A stretch of 29,453 nucleotides of DNA from a virus, in the IMG/VR virus record IMGVR_UViG_3300030329_001642, positions 1 to 29,453 of that record. One strand, 5' to 3'. The position numbers were made by a program, and so were the translations under genes. The notes below the pieces were generated by a model, which worked only from the letters and a program-made list of their open reading frames with translations, ran no database searches and was not told the origin of the DNA. This document shows, piece by piece, positions 4,967 through 29,453 of this stretch (position 1 is its first letter; each line of letters opens with the position of its first letter).

Positions 4967-5049
4967 GAACCTGGGCCTGCTGCGGCGGACAACCCAAGGC
5001 GAGTGAAGAGAAGCGAGTTCTAACCCAACTCATTTCGTTTCATTTCTCC

Positions 5050-6931: not shown

Positions 6932-9900
6932 ATGCCCCTAATAAACTACAGCATCCCTTCCCTAATCGGTGGAGTAACTCAGCAACCCTCTAACCTTGCA
7001 TACCCTGGACAGGCTAAGGTTCTAGAGAACGCATGGCCCTCGGTAACGGACGGCCTTCAAAAGCGTTACCCGACAGAATACCACGGAAAACTTAGTGGCG
7101 CCGACTTCAATAAGACCCACAAGATCGCCAACCACTTTATTGATAAGTCTACGGACGAACGGTATCTCGTCACGGTCAACGGCGGTGCGGTCTGGGACGG
7201 TTCCAAGTACCCACGAAGGCTACGCACGTTTGACCTTCTTGACGTGTCTGGGGGCCTCATCAATACGCCCGTTGTCCGTATGTCTAGAAGTGGGTATGAC
7301 TATCTAGACTCGACCAACCCGGATGACTATAGGTTCCAAACCATTGGTGACGTAACCTTTGTAGTCAATAGGTCTAAGGTGCCGGCCAAGCTTGCTGATA
7401 CTGGTCCCACTAGTAACAAGCAAGCTATTCTGTACGTCCGTAGTACGCTGGCATCGAACGCCCATGAGGACGTGGTTGTGACGTTCAATGGCGCCAGTAC
7501 GGTAAACATTCGAGAAGGTGACGCGAGCTCTACCTTATTGGCTTACAACATCTATGCAGCGTTGACGGGTGCTGACGCTTCTCAAGGGGCGCATACGGTA
7601 AGTAAACACTCCAATAAGTTCCTAAAAACAAGCCACGGTATTGCCGCCAATACTGCTATCAAGGTTGCTGCGGATACGTTCCCTACATATAGGGTGAGTG
7701 CATATGATGAAGAGGATGGCACATTCTACTACAGTACTAAGAGCATCTCCGCAGAGACGGTTCTATACGTTCGTGACGTAGAGTCCAACGCCTATAAAGT
7801 GTCCTTTCAGCCAGGAGGCGATGCCTTGGATTGGGTAACTGAGGGGTCAAACATTGTGGTCACTTCAATAGGTACGGGCTCGCCCCCCACCGGCTTTGAG
7901 AAGCTAGTAGTTCAGGGGAGTCCTGACGTTACGTCCGTCTTGGGCGGCGGCGCGACCTCTCACAACGTAGGTAACGTCCTTCTGTTGTCTCACCTCGATG
8001 GTGAAGACTTCTCGATTGAGGTTAGGGACGCTGCCGGTAACTCACTCGTAGACGTATACAAAGACTCAGCGCCTTCTTTCAGTGAGCTACCTGATACTGC
8101 CGTAGACGGTTTTGCTCTACAGATCAGGAACGACCCGGCCACTGGGCTGGATGACTACTGGGTAAAGTTTGTAGCAGACTCAGGAAACCCAGGAGAGCTC
8201 TCGAGTGGGTACTGGACCGAGATTGCGACGCCCGGTGGGCAAAACAAACTAGACCCGCGTACGATGCCCCACATTCTAGTGAGAACTCCAGACCCAGGGG
8301 GTGGGCTCCCCTCGTTTGCTTTCATGCCGGGTGGGGAAGCCTTTAGTAATGTAGTGGGTCTAGATAACGAGAATGACCGGCTCGAGATCCAGATTGCGCC
8401 TACCGGGGTTATTTCGACATACAACACCGAGCTCCTTGCTGACGGTGATGAAGTAACTTTATCTGATATCAGTGAGGCTAGTGGCCTAGACTTGGTAGCA
8501 GATAAGCTGTACTACGTGAAGGCTATTAGCACTGCCACAGGTAATACGCAAACTATCGAGCTATACCATGATTCTGGTCTATCTGATAAGGTCACGTTTA
8601 CCTTTACAGATGGGGTAAGCGTTTTCGCCGTTCTTCGGGCAAAGGCTGAGTACCCCCAGTTTGTATGGAATGACCGCCAAGCTGGTGGTGAGGTCACCAA
8701 CCCGGATCCCACGTTTGTGGGGACGCCTATTGAAGATGTATCTTTCTTCAAGAACCGCCTAGCGTTTGCTGCTGGCGAAAACTTTGTTCTCTCCGAGCTT
8801 GGTGAGTTCTTCAACTTCTACCGTACGACAGTTACTCAACTCCTCGAGACTGCCCCTATTGACGTAGCGAGCTCGTGGGCCGGTGTGGCGAACATCAATC
8901 GACTTGTACCTTATGGGCAAGGGCTTCTAGGTCTTGCCCCTAATGTTCAGTTCTTCTTGAAGGCTTCAGGTTCTCAGGCGTTCGGGGCAAGCACGGTAAG
9001 TATTGATGTCGTATCTAACCTCTCTACGGCGCCGGTAGACGCTGCCGCTCCTCAACTTATGGGGAGCTCACTGTACCTTCCGTTTACGCGGGGGGACTAC
9101 GTTGGGATGTATGAGTATAAACCTGATAATACAGGCGTGTTTAGTAATGACGATGTTACTAGCCACGTACCCCAGTACGTAGAAGGTCCTCTAAGGGATA
9201 TTGCAGTACTTGAAAAAGAGAAGTGCATGGTACTGTTGGGTACTAAGGCAGTAACTGACGGCTATAAAAACACAAACGAGCTATACGTTTATAAAACGCT
9301 GGCGTTGGGGGAGAAGCGGGTACAGTCCGCGTGGACTAAGTACACCTTCCACGGGGCGGATATTCGAGCTATACACTTCTACGATAATGAACTCTATATC
9401 ATGAGTTGTCGTACTGTGGGCGAAGACGATTCTTGGTGGATTGACAAGATATCTTTCAAGACTGGGCGGACAGATACTGACTCAACCTATGTGACCCACC
9501 TGGACCGTAGGTTCAAGTACACCGTACCCGGCGGAGATTATGACGCCGCTAACGGGTGGACGAATATCGGAGCCGGCGGGGAGATCTATCCCTTTGAATG
9601 GGAAAACCCTATGGAGGCCGTTACTACTGACGGAGAGCTCCTGCCAAGCCTAAACTCCCGCGTAGATGGACAGATCCGCGTCATGGGGGATATGACAGGC
9701 AAGGTCGTGTGGGTGGGCGAGAAGTACACCATGAAGTGCAAAATGCACACACAGTACGTACGCCAGAACACAGGATCTCGCGGGGTCGTAGCGCTGGTAG
9801 CCGGCCGCACTCAGCTACGTACAGGAACTTTGATGCACGCAGACTCTGTGTACTTCAACGTACAGGTCACCCCGCTCAACCGTGATCCTTACAACTACAC

Positions 9901-10102
9901 CTATAACGGTAGGGAGCTAGGGGCCGGCAGGCTTTCTGTTGGGGCCATCCCCACCATTGAGGCGGGGGCGTTCAAGTTTCCGCTATACGGAAAGAATGAA
10001 GATGTAGACATCGAAATCACGAACGATTCTCCATTCCCTTCCAACCTTGTGGGGGCTGAGATCGAGGCTCTATATCATTCCAGGTCTGGGAGAGTGTCTT
10101 GA
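6932..10102 (+). CDS. tail tube protein B (T7 gp12-like nozzle), enlarged
   Basis: This protein forms the hexameric nozzle of the short tail. The N-terminus INYSIPSLIGGVTQQPSNL and LENAWPSVTDGLQKRYP, the middle DVSFFKNRLAFAAGENFVLS and the C-terminal half align with T7 gp12. It has 1056 residues against 794 in T7. The extra length appears in at least two places, about residues 234-316 and 500-560. Both are beta-rich stretches with a YY-containing core (FYYSTKSIS and LYYVKAIS) and a later FT/FQ...G strand, like beta-sandwich domains inserted in other phage tail proteins. The start at 6932 lies four bases after the previous stop and has no Shine-Dalgarno sequence. The stop overlaps the next start. 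Confidence 0.94.
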   Translation: MPLINYSIPSLIGGVTQQPSNLAYPGQAKVLENAWPSVTDGLQKRYPTEYHGKLSGADFNKTHKIANHFIDKSTDERYLVTVNGGAVWDGSKYPRRLRTFDLLDVSGGLINTPVVRMSRSGYDYLDSTNPDDYRFQTIGDVTFVVNRSKVPAKLADTGPTSNKQAILYVRSTLASNAHEDVVVTFNGASTVNIREGDASSTLLAYNIYAALTGADASQGAHTVSKHSNKFLKTSHGIAANTAIKVAADTFPTYRVSAYDEEDGTFYYSTKSISAETVLYVRDVESNAYKVSFQPGGDALDWVTEGSNIVVTSIGTGSPPTGFEKLVVQGSPDVTSVLGGGATSHNVGNVLLLSHLDGEDFSIEVRDAAGNSLVDVYKDSAPSFSELPDTAVDGFALQIRNDPATGLDDYWVKFVADSGNPGELSSGYWTEIATPGGQNKLDPRTMPHILVRTPDPGGGLPSFAFMPGGEAFSNVVGLDNENDRLEIQIAPTGVISTYNTELLADGDEVTLSDISEASGLDLVADKLYYVKAISTATGNTQTIELYHDSGLSDKVTFTFTDGVSVFAVLRAKAEYPQFVWNDRQAGGEVTNPDPTFVGTPIEDVSFFKNRLAFAAGENFVLSELGEFFNFYRTTVTQLLETAPIDVASSWAGVANINRLVPYGQGLLGLAPNVQFFLKASGSQAFGASTVSIDVVSNLSTAPVDAAAPQLMGSSLYLPFTRGDYVGMYEYKPDNTGVFSNDDVTSHVPQYVEGPLRDIAVLEKEKCMVLLGTKAVTDGYKNTNELYVYKTLALGEKRVQSAWTKYTFHGADIRAIHFYDNELYIMSCRTVGEDDSWWIDKISFKTGRTDTDSTYVTHLDRRFKYTVPGGDYDAANGWTNIGAGGEIYPFEWENPMEAVTTDGELLPSLNSRVDGQIRVMGDMTGKVVWVGEKYTMKCKMHTQYVRQNTGSRGVVALVAGRTQLRTGTLMHADSVYFNVQVTPLNRDPYNYTYNGRELGAGRLSVGAIPTIEAGAFKFPLYGKNEDVDIEITNDSPFPSNLVGAEIEALYHSRSGRVS

Positions 10103-10578
10103 CAGACGTAGTGCTACGTATGGCTACGCGAGAAGACGCTAAGGAGATTGCAGGGAATCTCAGGGAGGCTGACCTTGGGGAGATGAAGGCCGTCCTAGGA
10201 ACTGTGGAAGACCCCGCAGAGTCCCTTATTTACGGCGTTGATAACAGCGCATACCCGATGGTGGCTACGATTGATGGCGTCCCTGTTTCCATCTTTGGAG
10301 TCATTCGAGACCCTATCAATGCGGACGTAGGATGCGTCTGGATGATGGGCACTGATGAGATGACCCGGCGTAAAAAACTGTTCTTACGCCACGCCCTGAA
10401 AGCACTAGAAACGCTGTTTGGATCGTTCCGACTTCTATGGTGCTGTATGGATAAGAGAAACACAGTTCACGTTAGGTGGATCCAGTGGCTTGGGTTTAGT
10501 CTATTGCGTGAGCATCCTTCTTTTGGAGAGCAGCGTAAACCGTTCCTTGAGTTTGCTAAACTAAACACCAATGTGTGA
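10099..10578 (+). CDS. T7 gp13-like protein with acetyltransferase-like (GNAT, DUF2833) fold
   Basis: This 159-residue protein occupies the place of T7 gp13 (138 residues), which is needed for correct assembly of the internal core. The first strand, VVLRMATREDAKEIA, is typical of GNAT N-termini, and the C-terminal NTVHVRWIQWLGFSLLRE resembles both gp13 and the last GNAT motif. Whether it binds acetyl-CoA is doubtful; no clear Q/RxxGxG/A loop is seen, so it may be a structural derivative. I use the TTG at 10099, which overlaps the previous TGA and has GGGAG at 10088-10092. The next ATG (10120) would remove the first beta strand. Confidence 0.82.
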   Translation: MTDVVLRMATREDAKEIAGNLREADLGEMKAVLGTVEDPAESLIYGVDNSAYPMVATIDGVPVSIFGVIRDPINADVGCVWMMGTDEMTRRKKLFLRHALKALETLFGSFRLLWCCMDKRNTVHVRWIQWLGFSLLREHPSFGEQRKPFLEFAKLNTNV

Positions 10579-23212: not shown

Positions 23213-23431
23213 ATGGAAGCCGACGATCAGCGTATCCTATTGGCCCTTGGCCGCCTTGAAGGTAAGGTAGACTCTCTTATTGCCCGAGATCAAATCGTAC
23301 AAGGCGATCTTGAAAAGCTTGCTGATCGTATGCGGGTACTTGAGGCTTCAAAATCTTCTATAATGGGAGCGTGTGCAGCTATCACTGCTGTCATCTCCTT
23401 CCTAATCTCATTTATCTCCGACAAACTCTAA
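23213..23431 (+). CDS. holin-like protein with one membrane segment
   Basis: This 72-residue protein has an N-terminal amphipathic, coiled-coil-like helix (residues about 5-45, ILLALGRLEGKVDSLIARD and onward) and one hydrophobic C-terminal segment (about 49-69, IMGACAAITAVISFLISFI), ending SDKL. This resembles XhlA/class III-type holins and similar small lysis proteins. T7 places its holin (gp17.5) right after the fibre, as here. A holin forms the inner membrane lesion that triggers lysis. No endolysin is seen beside it; in T7 the lysozyme lies upstream of the polymerase, outside this window. The start at 23213 has no Shine-Dalgarno sequence. The stop overlaps the next start as TAATG. Confidence 0.72.
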   Translation: MEADDQRILLALGRLEGKVDSLIARDQIVQGDLEKLADRMRVLEASKSSIMGACAAITAVISFLISFISDKL

Positions 23432-23772
23432 TGAAGCTACTCTACCTTGCGCCCCTTATGCTCGCGCTGGTCGCCTCCTGCGCGACTCCAGGCGATCTAC
23501 GCGACCTTGCGGACTCTTTTGAAGACTTCCAATCGGGGGCTATTACTGATACCGAGCTCGAGGACGCTATCGCAGCTAAGGCTGACGAGATTGAAGAGCG
23601 AACGGTAGACCTTGTAGAGTCTATGCCCACCTCGCCGGCCGGTTGGCTGGCCCTTCTAGCCCAACTAGGCGCTACGGCGGCTATTGGCGGCTACGGAGTC
23701 AACCGATACCGCGACAAGAAGCGCGTGCTGCGAGGCGAAGCTACTGGTTCTACCCCGCCGCCCCTTATCTAA
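23431..23772 (+). CDS. lipoprotein with C-terminal membrane segment, possible unimolecular spanin
   Basis: This 113-residue protein has a lipoprotein signal peptide with lipobox VAS/Cys17. The residue after the cysteine is Ala, not Asp, so outer membrane sorting is expected. A charged helical region (residues 21-65) is followed by a hydrophobic segment (about 70-90) and then a basic tail, NRYRDKKR, that would face the cytoplasm. A lipid anchor at one end and a transmembrane segment at the other is the topology of unimolecular spanins such as phage T1 gp11, which fuse outer and inner membranes in the last step of lysis. The periplasmic part is short for this (about 50 residues). I chose the ATG at 23431, which overlaps the holin stop. 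No separate Rz/Rz1 pair is seen. Confidence 0.68.
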   Translation: MKLLYLAPLMLALVASCATPGDLRDLADSFEDFQSGAITDTELEDAIAAKADEIEERTVDLVESMPTSPAGWLALLAQLGATAAIGGYGVNRYRDKKRVLRGEATGSTPPPLI

Positions 23773-24074
23773 GGCTCCCACAGTGCCTGATAGCACCGTG
23801 AGTACGCTACGCCCCACTCCGGGCCGTGTGCGTCTACGAGTGGGTCATCAGTCCAAGCCAAGGCGTGCGCCCATTCATGGGCTAGGATCCCCAAAGCTTC
23901 GCTGTCAGCAAGCCGAGCGTGGATGCGGATTAGAAATCTATCGGGCTCCTCTAGGTACTCACACGTACCGTACTCTTCCATCTTCTTCGGTCGAGTTACG
24001 CGGACGGTATGAGGTAGGGGCACCAAGTCTTCAAGGGTCTGGATACCCTGTTTCAGTTTCTTGCTTAGTGCCAT
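23769..24074 (-). CDS. SprT-like zinc metallopeptidase on the minus strand
   Basis: This 101-residue protein is the only minus-strand gene in the window. HEWAH (residues 66-70) followed by AHGPEW with His83 gives the HExxH...H zinc site with the HGPEW pattern of the SprT family. SprT proteins are zinc-binding putative proteases; the phage role is unknown. The reading frame fills the gap between the lipoprotein and the small terminase exactly: its TAG shares bases with the lipoprotein TAA (23769-23772), and its ATG overlaps the terminase ATG in the palindrome CATG (24072-24075). I find no Shine-Dalgarno sequence or convincing promoter for it within the terminase gene, so how it is expressed is open. 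The forward frame over the same bases has no protein-like features. Confidence 0.8.
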   Translation of the reverse strand: MALSKKLKQGIQTLEDLVPLPHTVRVTRPKKMEEYGTCEYLEEPDRFLIRIHARLADSEALGILAHEWAHALAWTDDPLVDAHGPEWGVAYSRCYQALWEP

Positions 24075-24294
24075 GAGTAAATCAAAAGAAGAGCTATTAG
24101 AACAGTTGCACTGCCTTGTCGCTGAAGAGCTTATCGACAGGATTCAAACTGGAGAAGCTAGTGCAGCGGAACTAGGGGTGGCAACGAAGTTCCTAAAAGA
24201 TAACGGGATGGACGTGAGTAGCGAAGCCGATACCCCTATCCATGACCTGTCTAAGATTGTACCGTTCTCACAGGCTCGAGCGCAGGGTGAATGA
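24073..24294 (+). CDS. terS: terminase small subunit (T7 gp18-like)
   Basis: This 73-residue protein is short but matches small terminases of T7-like phages (T7 gp18 has 89): a helical SKEELLEQLHCLVAEELIDR, then TGEASAAELGVATKFLKDNG, which is the recognition part. It binds the concatemer and recruits the large subunit. I use the ATG at 24073; an in-frame TTG at 24061 would extend it into the minus-strand neighbour. There is no Shine-Dalgarno sequence, and because the gene upstream is on the other strand it cannot be translated by coupling. Its stop overlaps the large subunit start as ATGA, which supports joint expression. Confidence 0.88.
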   Translation: MSKSKEELLEQLHCLVAEELIDRIQTGEASAAELGVATKFLKDNGMDVSSEADTPIHDLSKIVPFSQARAQGE

Positions 24295-25982
24295 GTAAAC
24301 GTAAGGCGGAGTTTGAAGTACCTGAAGAGCTAAAAGACTTTAGGAACTTTGTCTATCTGGTATGGAGCTACCTAAACCTGCCAGAGCCTACGCCTATCCA
24401 GTACGACATTAGCTCATTTCTGCAACACGGTCCCAGAAGGCGTACCATCTGCGCGTTTCGAGGCGTTGGCAAGTCGTTTTTGACTAGCGCCTATGCGGTT
24501 TGGCAGCTACTGCTGGACCCGCAGAAAAACATTTTGGTGGTGTCGGCCAGTAAGGCGCGTAGTGATGACTTCTCCACCTTCGTGCAGCGCATGATCTGGG
24601 AAATGCCGATCCTGGCGCACCTAAAGCCGGCAGAATCCCAGCGTACTTCTAAGATCGCCTTCGACGTAGGGCCGGCAAAGGCCGCTCACGCCCCCTCAGT
24701 CAAGTCAGTCGGTATTACCGGGCAGCTAACGGGATCTCGAGCCGACCTAATCATCTCCGATGACGCGGAGTCCCTCAACAATGCGGCTACTCAGGGACAA
24801 CGGGACAAGCTTTCAGAGCTCGTCAAGGAGTTTGAGGCTATCGTCAAGCCCGGTGGGGAGATCGTCTTCCTAGGGACGCCTCAGACGGACGCAGGGAGCC
24901 TCTACCACATCCTCCCTGAACGGGGCTACTCCACTCGCGTGTGGCCTGCACGGTATCCTACAGCGCGTCTGAGGAAGCGCTACGGGAATACCCTCGCTCC
25001 TAAGATCGAAGAGGAGCTCAAAGAGAACCCCGACCTCGCTGGAGAGCCTACGGACCCCCGCCGGTTCAACCAAGTCGAGCTCGAGGAGCGGGAAGCCAGC
25101 TATGGCCGAAGCGGTTTTGCCCAGCAGTTCATGCTGGACCCGTCACTAGAGGACGAGAACAAGTACCCGCTGCGAGTCAATGACCTGATCGTCATGGACA
25201 TTGATTCTGAGAAGGCCCCAGAGAACATGATATGGGCCGGCTCAGACGATTACAGGCTACCAAGCCTTCCTAATGTTTCTTTCGCCGGCGATCACTACCA
25301 CAAGCCTATGGCTATTGATGGTGAATGGCTGAAGTACTCAGGGTCCGTAATGGCGATTGACCCCAGTGGACGCGGCAAAGACGAAACTTCGTTCAGTATC
25401 GTAAAGGTGCTGAACGGTTTTATGTACGTCCATGAGTGTACTGGTATCACTGGGGGATACGGTAAAGAGGTACTTGAAAAACTCGCACACGAAGCCAAGC
25501 GACATAAAGTAAACCTTATCCTCGTAGAATCGAACTTTGGGGACGGAATGTTTCTTGAGCTTCTCAAGCAGCATCTCAGGCGGATCTTCCCCGTCACTAC
25601 GGAAGAGGTCCGTCACCACATCCAAAAGAATAAGAGAATCATTGATACTCTTGAGCCAGTAATGAATCAGCATAAACTGGTGGTGTCCTCTCGGCTTGTC
25701 GAGCGCGATTATGAATCTACACTAGCACTACCGCCCGAAAAGCAGAACCAGTTTCGTTTGTTTTGGCAGATGACGCGCTGCACACGGGAAAGGGGATCGT
25801 TGATACACGACGATAGGCTTGACGTGTTGGCTATGGCTGTAGGTTACTGGGTAGACGCTGCCGGCTTGGAAGCTTCAGAAGCTATGAAGACACGTCGAGA
25901 GGAGTTGCTAAATGAAGAGCTCGAGAACATAATGAATGCACGCACGATTGGCTCGCCCCAGTCTCCCCTCACTTGGATGTAA
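24291..25982 (+). CDS. terL: terminase large subunit (T7 gp19-like packaging ATPase/nuclease)
   Basis: This 563-residue motor protein packages DNA and cuts concatemers; T7 gp19 has 586. The ATPase domain has a Walker A RGVGKS (residues 57-62) and a Walker B with acidic pair Asp157-Asp158 and Glu160 in LIISDDAES. The coupling region has EIVFLGTPQTDAGSLYH. The RNase H-like nuclease domain has Asp357 in MAIDPSGRGKDETSF, a LILVESNFGDGMFLELL segment, and the last metal ligands in HDDRLDVL (Asp507, Asp508, Asp511). T7-like terminases of this kind usually make short direct terminal repeats, so fixed genome ends are expected. Expression is coupled to the small subunit through ATGA. Confidence 0.96.
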   Translation: MSKRKAEFEVPEELKDFRNFVYLVWSYLNLPEPTPIQYDISSFLQHGPRRRTICAFRGVGKSFLTSAYAVWQLLLDPQKNILVVSASKARSDDFSTFVQRMIWEMPILAHLKPAESQRTSKIAFDVGPAKAAHAPSVKSVGITGQLTGSRADLIISDDAESLNNAATQGQRDKLSELVKEFEAIVKPGGEIVFLGTPQTDAGSLYHILPERGYSTRVWPARYPTARLRKRYGNTLAPKIEEELKENPDLAGEPTDPRRFNQVELEEREASYGRSGFAQQFMLDPSLEDENKYPLRVNDLIVMDIDSEKAPENMIWAGSDDYRLPSLPNVSFAGDHYHKPMAIDGEWLKYSGSVMAIDPSGRGKDETSFSIVKVLNGFMYVHECTGITGGYGKEVLEKLAHEAKRHKVNLILVESNFGDGMFLELLKQHLRRIFPVTTEEVRHHIQKNKRIIDTLEPVMNQHKLVVSSRLVERDYESTLALPPEKQNQFRLFWQMTRCTRERGSLIHDDRLDVLAMAVGYWVDAAGLEASEAMKTRREELLNEELENIMNARTIGSPQSPLTWM

Positions 25983-27180: not shown

Positions 27181-27226
27181 ATTGGCTTACAACATCGCTG
27201 CATAGATGTTGTAAGCCAATTTTTTC
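27181..27226 (+). terminator. strong intrinsic terminator, perfect 16-bp stem
   Basis: ATTGGCTTACAACATC (27181-27196) and its exact reverse complement (27205-27220) enclose the loop GCTGCATA. The stem is followed by TTTTT (27221-27225), and the last stem base adds one more T. It separates the late region from the gene at 27253. Confidence 0.88.
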
Positions 27227-27468: not shown

Positions 27469-27521
27469 ACCGAAAAACGACGCAAAAATCTGAGCGGTCT
27501 CATTCCAACGCCGGTGGCTAC

Positions 27522-27541
27522 CGCCCCCCGGCGCCCCCCGG
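27522..27541. repeat. tandem pair of CGCCCCCCGG
   Basis: CGCCCCCCGG occurs twice in direct tandem (27522-27531 and 27532-27541). The second C6 run (27534-27539) can pair with the G6 run at 27564-27569, extended by GGCG/CGCC across a two-base bulge, with the AT island TTATATATA in the loop. Confidence 0.75.
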
Positions 27542-27935
27542 CAACCTTATATATAGGGCGCGTGGGGGGACCGCCTACCGCTGGCCGGCACGCCCACGTC
27601 ACGTGCCGCGTCACGCTATCACGCCGCGCCGCCGCCTAACGCCCTTCAAGGCGCCGTGTGGGGGTTGTGCCATCGGATCTAGAATCCGACGAGGCGCTGG
27701 TGAGGGGCTCAAGGTCTGCCCGGTGCCGGCGGGGAGCGCGGGCTGGCCGGCCGTAGCTGTGCCTGTCTCTCTCTGTCATGGCCCGTCTTTTGGCCCTACC
27801 AGGACCCACGAGCCCTGCGGGGCGCGGGCGGCGTCCAGGAAGGAGCCGGCAAGGGGTCCAGGCAGAATCTGAGAATCCTAAGTGCTGACAGGGTAGGCAC
27901 TTCGGACACTCTGGAAAAGAAACACGTAGAAGGGG

Positions 27936-27966
27936 TTGACGAAGCGGACAGGATATCCGATAGTAC
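27936..27966 (+). promoter_or_regulatory. sigma70-like early promoter 1
   Basis: TTGACG (27936-27941) is followed after 17 bases by GATAGT (27959-27964), or after 19 bases by TAGTAC (27961-27966). An A-rich stretch lies upstream (27914-27922). It is 52 or more bases before the first early gene. The spacer holds the palindrome-like GGACAGGATATCC (27946-27958), shared in form with promoter 2. Confidence 0.55.
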
Positions 27967-28017
27967 TTCTATCAACGCGGCGGGGATGACCCCGGCCGAA
28001 GCCAAAGGAAACAAGCC

Positions 28018-28188
28018 ATGACTACCAAGACCGAGCGGACGACTACGCTGACTGACGAGGAGCTGGCAGAAGACGCTTACGCAGGCGCGAGCTGCTACAC
28101 GTGCAACAAGCCTCTCACGCGCTACGAAGAGGCCCACGGGGACGGAAACTGCTTGCGGTGCTTCCAGGAGCTGGAAGGCCCTGAGTAA
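28018..28188 (+). CDS. 56-residue zinc-knuckle protein, probable early gene
   Basis: This short gene encodes 56 residues beginning MTTKTERTTTLTDEEL. Two Cys pairs, Cys26-x2-Cys29 (SCYTCNK) and Cys45-x2-Cys48 (NCLRCF), would hold one zinc ion in a small zinc ribbon. Such proteins often bind nucleic acid or another protein; the target is unknown. The ATG has AAAGGAA (28005-28011) upstream and follows early promoter 1 through a leader with a small GGGG/CCCC hairpin (27982-27993). Its start region, GCCATGACTAC, is shared with two later genes. I consider it real because of the cysteine pattern, the ribosome binding site and the fit between its neighbours. Confidence 0.72.
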   Translation: MTTKTERTTTLTDEELAEDAYAGASCYTCNKPLTRYEEAHGDGNCLRCFQELEGPE

Positions 28189-28211
28189 CCAAACCAAACC
28201 AAAAGACAGCC

Positions 28212-28424
28212 ATGACTACTACTACTACTACTGAGGCGTTGCCTGCCCACTTCCCAGAAACCATCCCCGCCGTCTGGGAGATATTCGGCTTCCTGCGCGG
28301 GATGGCGTTCTGTGGCCGCTGGCCCGGTGACGCTGCTGCTGTTGCTGCTGTTGCTGAGGTGTTCGACATGAGCGACGAGGATGCGCTCGAAGTTTTCAAG
28401 AGCTACAGAGAGGTGACCAAATGA
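28212..28424 (+). CDS. small acidic early protein of unknown function
   Basis: This 70-residue protein starts with Met and six threonines, encoded by an (ACT)6 run (28215-28232). It continues with a hydrophobic-aromatic part (IPAVWEIFGFLRGMAFCG), an Ala/Val stretch encoded by GCT/GTT repeats (28332-28355) and a C-terminal DMSDEDALEVFKSYRE helix. I do not recognise it. There is no Shine-Dalgarno sequence; the leader is a CCAAA repeat (28189-28205) followed by the shared start box. The stop overlaps the next gene as ATGA. Confidence 0.62.
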   Translation: MTTTTTTEALPAHFPETIPAVWEIFGFLRGMAFCGRWPGDAAAVAAVAEVFDMSDEDALEVFKSYREVTK

Positions 28425-28855
28425 CCCAGAAAAACAAGATTCGCGGGATGGCCTGGGCGACCGACCGCGCCTGGACAACTCACCAAATCATCAACCTCGT
28501 GCTGAACTCGGAGCTGATCGCGGCGTCCAAGCGAGAACCGAACCCGTACGCCCTGGGCCATTTCCTGCTTGCGTCAGAAAAGATCCAAGAAACCGTCAAA
28601 GACGGATCCGGTGTAGAAGATCTGCGACGCCTGCGGACAGAGATCGAGGCGAGCTTCCTACTGCCGCTGACGCGTTTCTACCGCTGGCTCGACGCGGTGA
28701 CCGAGCATACCAATGACCGGCGACCCAGGGGCGAGCCGTGCCCTGGCATTTGCGTTCCTATCGCCAAATTCCGGGGGACCCGGTGTGACCTGTGCGGCGA
28801 CGAGAGCAACAGCCGCTGGGAGCCGGGGTTGAAGTGTGGGCGTGTCGAAGACTAG
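28421..28855 (+). CDS. early protein with C-terminal four-cysteine motif
   Basis: This is a 144-residue protein of unknown function. The first 95 residues look helical (TTHQIINLVLNSELIAASK, then YALGHFLLASEKIQETVKD and RRLRTEIEASFLLPLTRFYR). The C-terminus has Cys107-x3-Cys111 and Cys122-x2-Cys125 (PCPGIC and RCDLCGD), a probable zinc site. It begins with an ATGA overlap with the previous gene, so the two are likely translated together. It is followed by a C7A10 run and early promoter 2. Position and zinc site suggest a host-takeover or regulatory role, but this is only inference. Confidence 0.7.
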   Translation: MTQKNKIRGMAWATDRAWTTHQIINLVLNSELIAASKREPNPYALGHFLLASEKIQETVKDGSGVEDLRRLRTEIEASFLLPLTRFYRWLDAVTEHTNDRRPRGEPCPGICVPIAKFRGTRCDLCGDESNSRWEPGLKCGRVED

Positions 28856-28872
28856 CCCCCCCAAAAAAAAAA
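28856..28872. repeat. homopolymer junction C7A10
   Basis: Seven C (28856-28862) are followed directly by ten A (28863-28872), right after the stop of the four-cysteine gene. The A-run lies 12 bases before a -35 box and could act as an UP element. Its exact length may be a sequencing uncertainty. Confidence 0.8.
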
Positions 28873-28884
28873 CAGATAACCCGA

Positions 28885-28913
28885 TTGACAACGGATACCT
28901 TGTCCGATAGAAC
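28885..28913 (+). promoter_or_regulatory. sigma70-like early promoter 2, upstream of the ArdC-like gene
   Basis: A perfect -35 box TTGACA (28885-28890), a 17-base spacer and TAGAAC (28908-28913, four of six matches) form a host-type promoter. An A10 tract lies just upstream, and the ArdC-like start codon is 46 bases downstream. The spacer contains GGATACCTTGTCC (28893-28905). Confidence 0.65.
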
Positions 28914-28958
28914 ATAGACCAACACGAGGCGCGAGCCTTCCTACCAAACGAGACAGCC

Positions 28959-29453
28959 ATGACTACCAAAACCAAGACCGACGCCTACCAGCTGATCACC
29001 GACGCCATGCTCGCCCTCATCGAGGCCGGCACCTGCCCTTGGCGCAAGACCTGGCAGGGCACCGATGGCGACAACGGTGCTATATCGATGAGCTCCGGCA
29101 AGCCCTACTCCGGTATAAATCCCTGGATCCTCGCCCTGACCGCAATGAGCAAGGGCTTCACCTCTCGCCACTGGGGCACCTTCAAGGCCATTCAGGCCAA
29201 CGGCGGCAAGGTCCGCAAGGGCGAGAAGAGCACCGCAGTGGTCTTCTGGAAGTGGATCAAGGCCGAGGACAAGAAGACCGGCGAGACCAAGACCATCCCC
29301 TTCCTGCGCTTCTTCCGAGTCTTCAACGCCGAGCAGGCCGAGTGGGCCGATGGGCTCCCTGAAGCCTTCCAGCCCCTGGACCTCACCGACGAGGTGGACG
29401 AGTTCGACCCTATCGAGCAGGCCGAGGCCATCGCTGCCGGCTACCTGGAAGGG
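28959..29453 (+). CDS. ArdC-like antirestriction protein, N-terminal part (right end cut off)
   Basis: The visible 165 residues match the N-terminal ssDNA-binding domain of ArdC (DUF1738). After MTTKTKTDAYQLITDAMLAL come CPWRKTW, SGKPYSGINPWILA, a FTSRHWGTFKAIQANGGKV segment and RKGEKSTAVVFWKW, all family hallmarks. ArdC proteins of plasmids protect entering DNA from type I and related restriction; they usually carry a C-terminal metallopeptidase-like domain, which would lie beyond the window. The gene has its own promoter and is among the first early genes, as the Ocr gene is in T7. Third codon positions are mostly C or G, clearly more so than in the structural genes, which may indicate separate acquisition. 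No strong Shine-Dalgarno sequence is present; the start shares GCCATGACTAC with two other early genes. Confidence 0.9.
   Translation, partial: MTTKTKTDAYQLITDAMLALIEAGTCPWRKTWQGTDGDNGAISMSSGKPYSGINPWILALTAMSKGFTSRHWGTFKAIQANGGKVRKGEKSTAVVFWKWIKAEDKKTGETKTIPFLRFFRVFNAEQAEWADGLPEAFQPLDLTDEVDEFDPIEQAEAIAAGYLEG

Follow-up and report, generated by a model that had tools for sequence, protein, structure and literature searches.

A minimal SprT-domain protein gene lies antisense to, and head-to-head with, the small terminase gene in two lineages of T7-like phages

Located on the minus strand at positions 23769-24074, the accessory gene sprT encodes a minimal SprT-domain protein; two lineages of T7-like phages carry it antisense to, and head-to-head with, the terminase small subunit gene (terS). 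The window, i.e., the whole stretch of DNA analysed here, corresponds to a 29,453-base virus record in IMG/VR that is not marked as complete. Read from the window sequence, the sprT ORF begins with ATG, ends with TAG, and encodes a 101 aa SprT-like zinc metallopeptidase with the motifs HEWAH and HGPEW, the latter followed by 14 residues to the end of the protein. Every other gene of the window that could be confidently identified, by homology or by conserved order, lies on the plus strand, and to that extent sprT is the lone antisense ORF that an earlier note on this DNA took it to be. The base-sharing which that note described is likewise present in the sequence. At the 3' end of sprT, a 4-nt convergent overlap, CTAA (23769-23772), holds the stop codons of both sprT (TAG, minus strand) and a lipoprotein-like ORF (TAA, plus strand), and at its 5' end the palindrome CATG (24072-24075) is common to the start codons of sprT and of terS, whose ATG starts at 24073.

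The right-hand neighbours are firmly identified as packaging genes. The product of terS (24073-24294, plus strand; T7 gp18-like) matches PF11123 (DNA_Packaging_2, E 2.4e-15) and phrog_891 (E 3e-16), and that of the large subunit gene terL (24291-25982, plus strand; T7 gp19-like) matches PF22530 (E 1.4e-36) and phrog_38 (E 5e-110). No confident name could be assigned to the left-hand neighbours from Pfam or PHROGs, and we regard both as putative lysis genes by topology alone. The lipoprotein-like ORF (23434-23772, plus strand), a possible spanin, has no family match in either database; its lipobox (LVASC), C-terminal hydrophobic stretch, and basic end correspond to the topology of a single-gene spanin, and it is kept in the two closest relatives (68-72%) and replaced or absent elsewhere. 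The holin/XhlA-like ORF before it (23213-23431, plus strand) combines a coiled coil with a C-terminal hydrophobic stretch and has homologues at the matching position in many relatives, with phrog_1103 retrieved only at E 0.019.

The phage is T7-like (autographivirus-type), having a T7-type terminase per Pfam, with a T7-type, single-subunit RNA polymerase found in three close relatives (G001, G002, and G003); the corresponding region is missing from the window, which is a fragment. The record appears to be circularly permuted with respect to the T7-like map, and a shift in composition and gene content marks 27470-29453 as an early-type region. Elsewhere in the window, a conserved 159 aa gene (10099-10578) of acetyltransferase-like appearance, as judged by eye, lies 3' of a tail tubular protein B-like gene and has no Pfam match. 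The late genes are followed by a perfect hairpin (16 bp, with a T run; 27181-27220), and its arm recurs at 96% over 28 nt within the tail tubular protein B-like gene (7537-7564); being palindromic, the arm matches there in both orientations.

The length of the sprT ORF is by itself no proof of coding, since a 130 aa ORF on the plus strand covers the same stretch by chance. When the minus-strand frame was compared with that of an 84%-identical relative, 14, 7, and 57 differences fell at codon positions 1, 2, and 3, respectively, with a dN of 0.11 and a saturated dS, and other sprT pairs gave a similar codon-position bias. In the comparisons made, the plus-strand frames of this stretch contained stops in one or both partners, and the 130 aa ORF was rejected as a true gene because such stops break its frame in relatives. 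These alignments indicate that the minus-strand frame is under purifying selection, as the dN/dS check suggested in the earlier note was meant to reveal. Homology, codon-position bias, and a confident fold identify the minus frame as the coding one, and homology, selection, and fold reject sprT as a chance ORF; it is a protein-coding gene, and the earlier expectation of a real protein is borne out.

Per Pfam, the protein belongs to the SprT-like family (PF10263, E 4.2e-7, 30.2 bits against a curated cut-off of 25.6), as do all 20 of the 20 aligned sprT homologues (E<=0.01). HEWAH (both histidines included), His83, Trp87-Gly88, Cys38, and Glu67 are invariant across the 20 sequences, and thus the putative zinc site, HExxH plus a third histidine, is conserved. 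In a profile search of the PDB, human SPRTN ranked first (E 0.017), with an alignment that covered the GxC...HExxH...HG core. Structure prediction, which the earlier note had also proposed, yielded a confident AlphaFold2 model (pLDDT 93, pTM 0.87) resembling SPRTN and Wss1. With this model as the query, the top structural matches were SPRTN (6mdw/6mdx, Z 9.3/9.0 over 94-96 residues), Aquifex AQ_1354, and Wss1, and selecase-type peptidases were also among the best relatives; a Z near 9 for the SPRTN match is modest, and Foldseek against the PDB gave E-values of 0.01 or worse. The model suggests that the protein would fold as a zinc-dependent metallopeptidase, and family and fold are most like those of the DNA-protein crosslink proteases, cut down to the catalytic core.

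The phage protein shares with PF10263, which covers bacterial SprT and eukaryotic SPRTN, the core order of GxC, strands, HExxH helix, and HG(P)xW/F helix, but at 101 aa it is the core alone, without a zinc ribbon or zinc-binding subdomain and without a PCNA- or ubiquitin-binding tail. The likeness to SPRTN, the best profile match in the PDB, is one of the protease core fold, whereas the DNA-binding zinc subdomain and the PCNA/ubiquitin-binding tail of SPRTN are absent. Wss1, the yeast DNA-protein crosslink protease, resembles it in fold (Z 8.7 across 87-89 residues), but sequence identity is 13-15% and the Wss1 C-terminal tail is missing. Many phages already carry annotated SprT-like proteins in BFVD; those of Aeromonas phage 65.2, Vibrio phage nt-1, and Mycobacterium phage Yuna have the same fold class and family name, but they come from other phage groups and are often longer. 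A single INPHARED record matched the protein sequence. SprT-like proteins are widespread in mycobacteriophages, where they have been likened to SPRTN (PMC12363180).

The best explanation overall, which we hold tentatively and at a little under an even chance, is that sprT encodes an accessory SPRTN/Wss1-like protease acting on phage DNA, inverted through a stable compact insertion. Zinc would be bound by the two HEWAH histidines and the HGPEW histidine, with the Glu as base, and the enzyme, in the manner of SPRTN and Wss1, would clip proteins that are attached to phage DNA or bind it tightly, whereby replication and packaging would be unblocked. By its kinship with these proteases, it probably acts on DNA-bound or DNA-crosslinked proteins; DNA targeting is putative in a protein without the zinc subdomain and the PCNA- and ubiquitin-binding regions of SPRTN. 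A SPRTN-like role leads because of the family, the fold, and the gene neighbourhood in an unrelated phage (L121), in which a family-A DNA polymerase gene precedes sprT on a shared strand and a RuvC-like ORF (RuvC match below the cut-off) is found nearby on the opposite one. In a census of other phage sprT genes, genes for an AlkB-like oxygenase, UvrD, a methylase, and HNH were found near sprT, helicases were equally common far away, and DNA repair genes next to sprT were not clearly enriched over more distant genes. In the L150/L180 group, sprT lies near a dCMP deaminase gene and antisense to TerL, but on the far side of TerL.

The main rival, which we consider rather unlikely, is an IrrE/ImmA-like signalling protease or anti-defence factor that would cleave one particular repressor or defence protein of the host in early or mid infection, with the minus strand keeping sprT apart from the late operon. 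The metallopeptidase fold class is common to both (IrrE/PprI, Z about 7; CapP, Z 5.9), IrrE came second in the PDB profile search (E 0.6), sprT is accessory and patchily distributed, and the phage also has an ArdC N-terminal domain (28959-29450; PF08401, E 5e-32). However, these sequence and structure matches are weaker than those to SPRTN and Wss1, Peptidase_M78 (IrrE/ImmA) scores 14.2 bits, below its Pfam cut-off of 22, the extra IrrE domains are lacking, and defence genes are not next to sprT.

The search for the same inverted gene in related phages, as the earlier note had advised, found the arrangement kept well beyond the window. An antisense sprT occupies the same place in L025, L026, L027, and L028/L029 (60-84% protein identity), and a wider search added L122-L129 (42-49% identity). 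The sprT ATG lies within CATG in all 13 of 13 related contigs, window included (the CATG of L120 was read by eye), and sprT is head-to-head with terS in 12 of the 12 contigs that reach terS; L128 starts too near sprT for the terS side to be judged. Each of the five lineages in the window's clade has the 4-nt stop overlap with the preceding gene, an overlap not conserved in the second clade, and the gene to the left varies within the window's clade, being the lipoprotein-like ORF, a holin-like ORF, or another ORF. In a TerL tree, the sprT carriers form two fully supported groups which are not joined to each other, and the closest neighbour of the window's clade (94/92) is a group that lacks sprT. 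Representatives of this sister group and of a third group, and the nearest isolates, CRP-114 and LUZ100, yielded no SprT-like match in whole-record searches, some of these records being fragments. Thus, relatives that lack the gene do exist, but within its two clades both frame and position are kept, and the sprT-terS pair is either older and was then lost or has moved between lineages.

Two further observations concern these groups. The second sprT clade has a second, weaker SprT-like match beyond TerL on the late strand (G011:C1:5936-6121 and G010:C1:1407-1592; open frame of 228 aa). In the sister group (L030, L031, L033, L035, L037, L039, and L073), terS-terL is divergent from the portal-capsid genes, and terS has another small minus-strand ORF beside it in a nearly head-to-head position (a gap of 3 nt in L030).

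With terS as the constant neighbour in two lineages, a protease linked to the virion or to packaging, processing a head, internal virion, or terminase protein, would explain the tie to terS. We consider this improbable: to our knowledge, no maturation protease takes part in the assembly of T7-type phages, sprT is missing from relatives whose structural genes are similar, and in other phages sprT lies away from packaging genes. It is similarly doubtful that the sprT-terS pair is a selected unit, in which a DNA-clearing protease for packaging would be timed by opposing transcription across CATG and kept or exchanged between T7-like lineages.

T7-like phages are normally transcribed one way. Given the T7-type RNA polymerase of the close relatives, late transcription presumably runs in a single direction, so that sprT would need its own minus-strand transcript. 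No minus-strand promoter for sprT conserved among relatives was found. The window's best sigma-70-like site starts 110 nt upstream of sprT and scores over its own background, but it is not common to the relatives and was rejected as a conserved promoter. A motif upstream of the capsid gene, GGGCCTGCTGCGGCGGACAACC (4973-4994), is common to four related genomes and is a candidate phage promoter or RNA element; it has no copy near sprT, and a phage-RNA-polymerase promoter of this kind was also rejected. No Shine-Dalgarno-like sequence precedes sprT or terS at the normal distance in the window. Identity at fourfold-degenerate sites was 0.25 in terS codons 1-20 and 0.30 in sprT, compared to 0.34-0.45 elsewhere, and no hidden synonymous-site conservation was seen in terS or sprT on either strand; no embedded cis-element is visible, since the fourfold sites of both vary as they do elsewhere. 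The promoter and synonymous-site results do not point towards a sequence-specific device for regulation, although a regulatory effect of transcription alone would be compatible with them.

The suggestion in the earlier note of a regulatory or lysis-timing arrangement therefore fared poorly. In the form considered here, a minus-strand sprT transcript would reduce the late read-through that enters terS or the lysis genes, with the protein playing a secondary part; the head-to-head antisense position kept in two TerL lineages would suit this. We nevertheless regard it as the least probable of the explanations considered, given the strong selection on the protein, the promoter results, the synonymous-site results on both strands, the close sister phages without sprT, and a left-hand neighbour that differs between relatives. 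The favoured DNA-clearing protease does not call for an antisense device dedicated to regulation: sprT would probably have a minus-strand promoter of its own, located within terS/terL or further downstream, and late read-through on the plus strand would supply the message from which terS is translated. In the simplest view, a compact insertion next to terS would have fixed sprT in its inverted orientation, clean inversion or loss of the gene being hard because starts and stops overlap.

The type of protein is known in phages; what is unusual is its conserved backwards, start-to-start placement beside terS. A limited literature search found no description of this conserved inverted position and nothing relevant on SprT in podoviruses. 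If the orientation merely reflects compact insertion, which seems most likely, sprT is an ordinary accessory gene. As a lone inverted gene, placed base-exact against terS and kept over deep divergence in two lineages, it offers a tractable case for the question of how such a gene is expressed, and the sprT-terS arrangement offers a case for testing SprT-domain proteases as keepers of packageable phage DNA.
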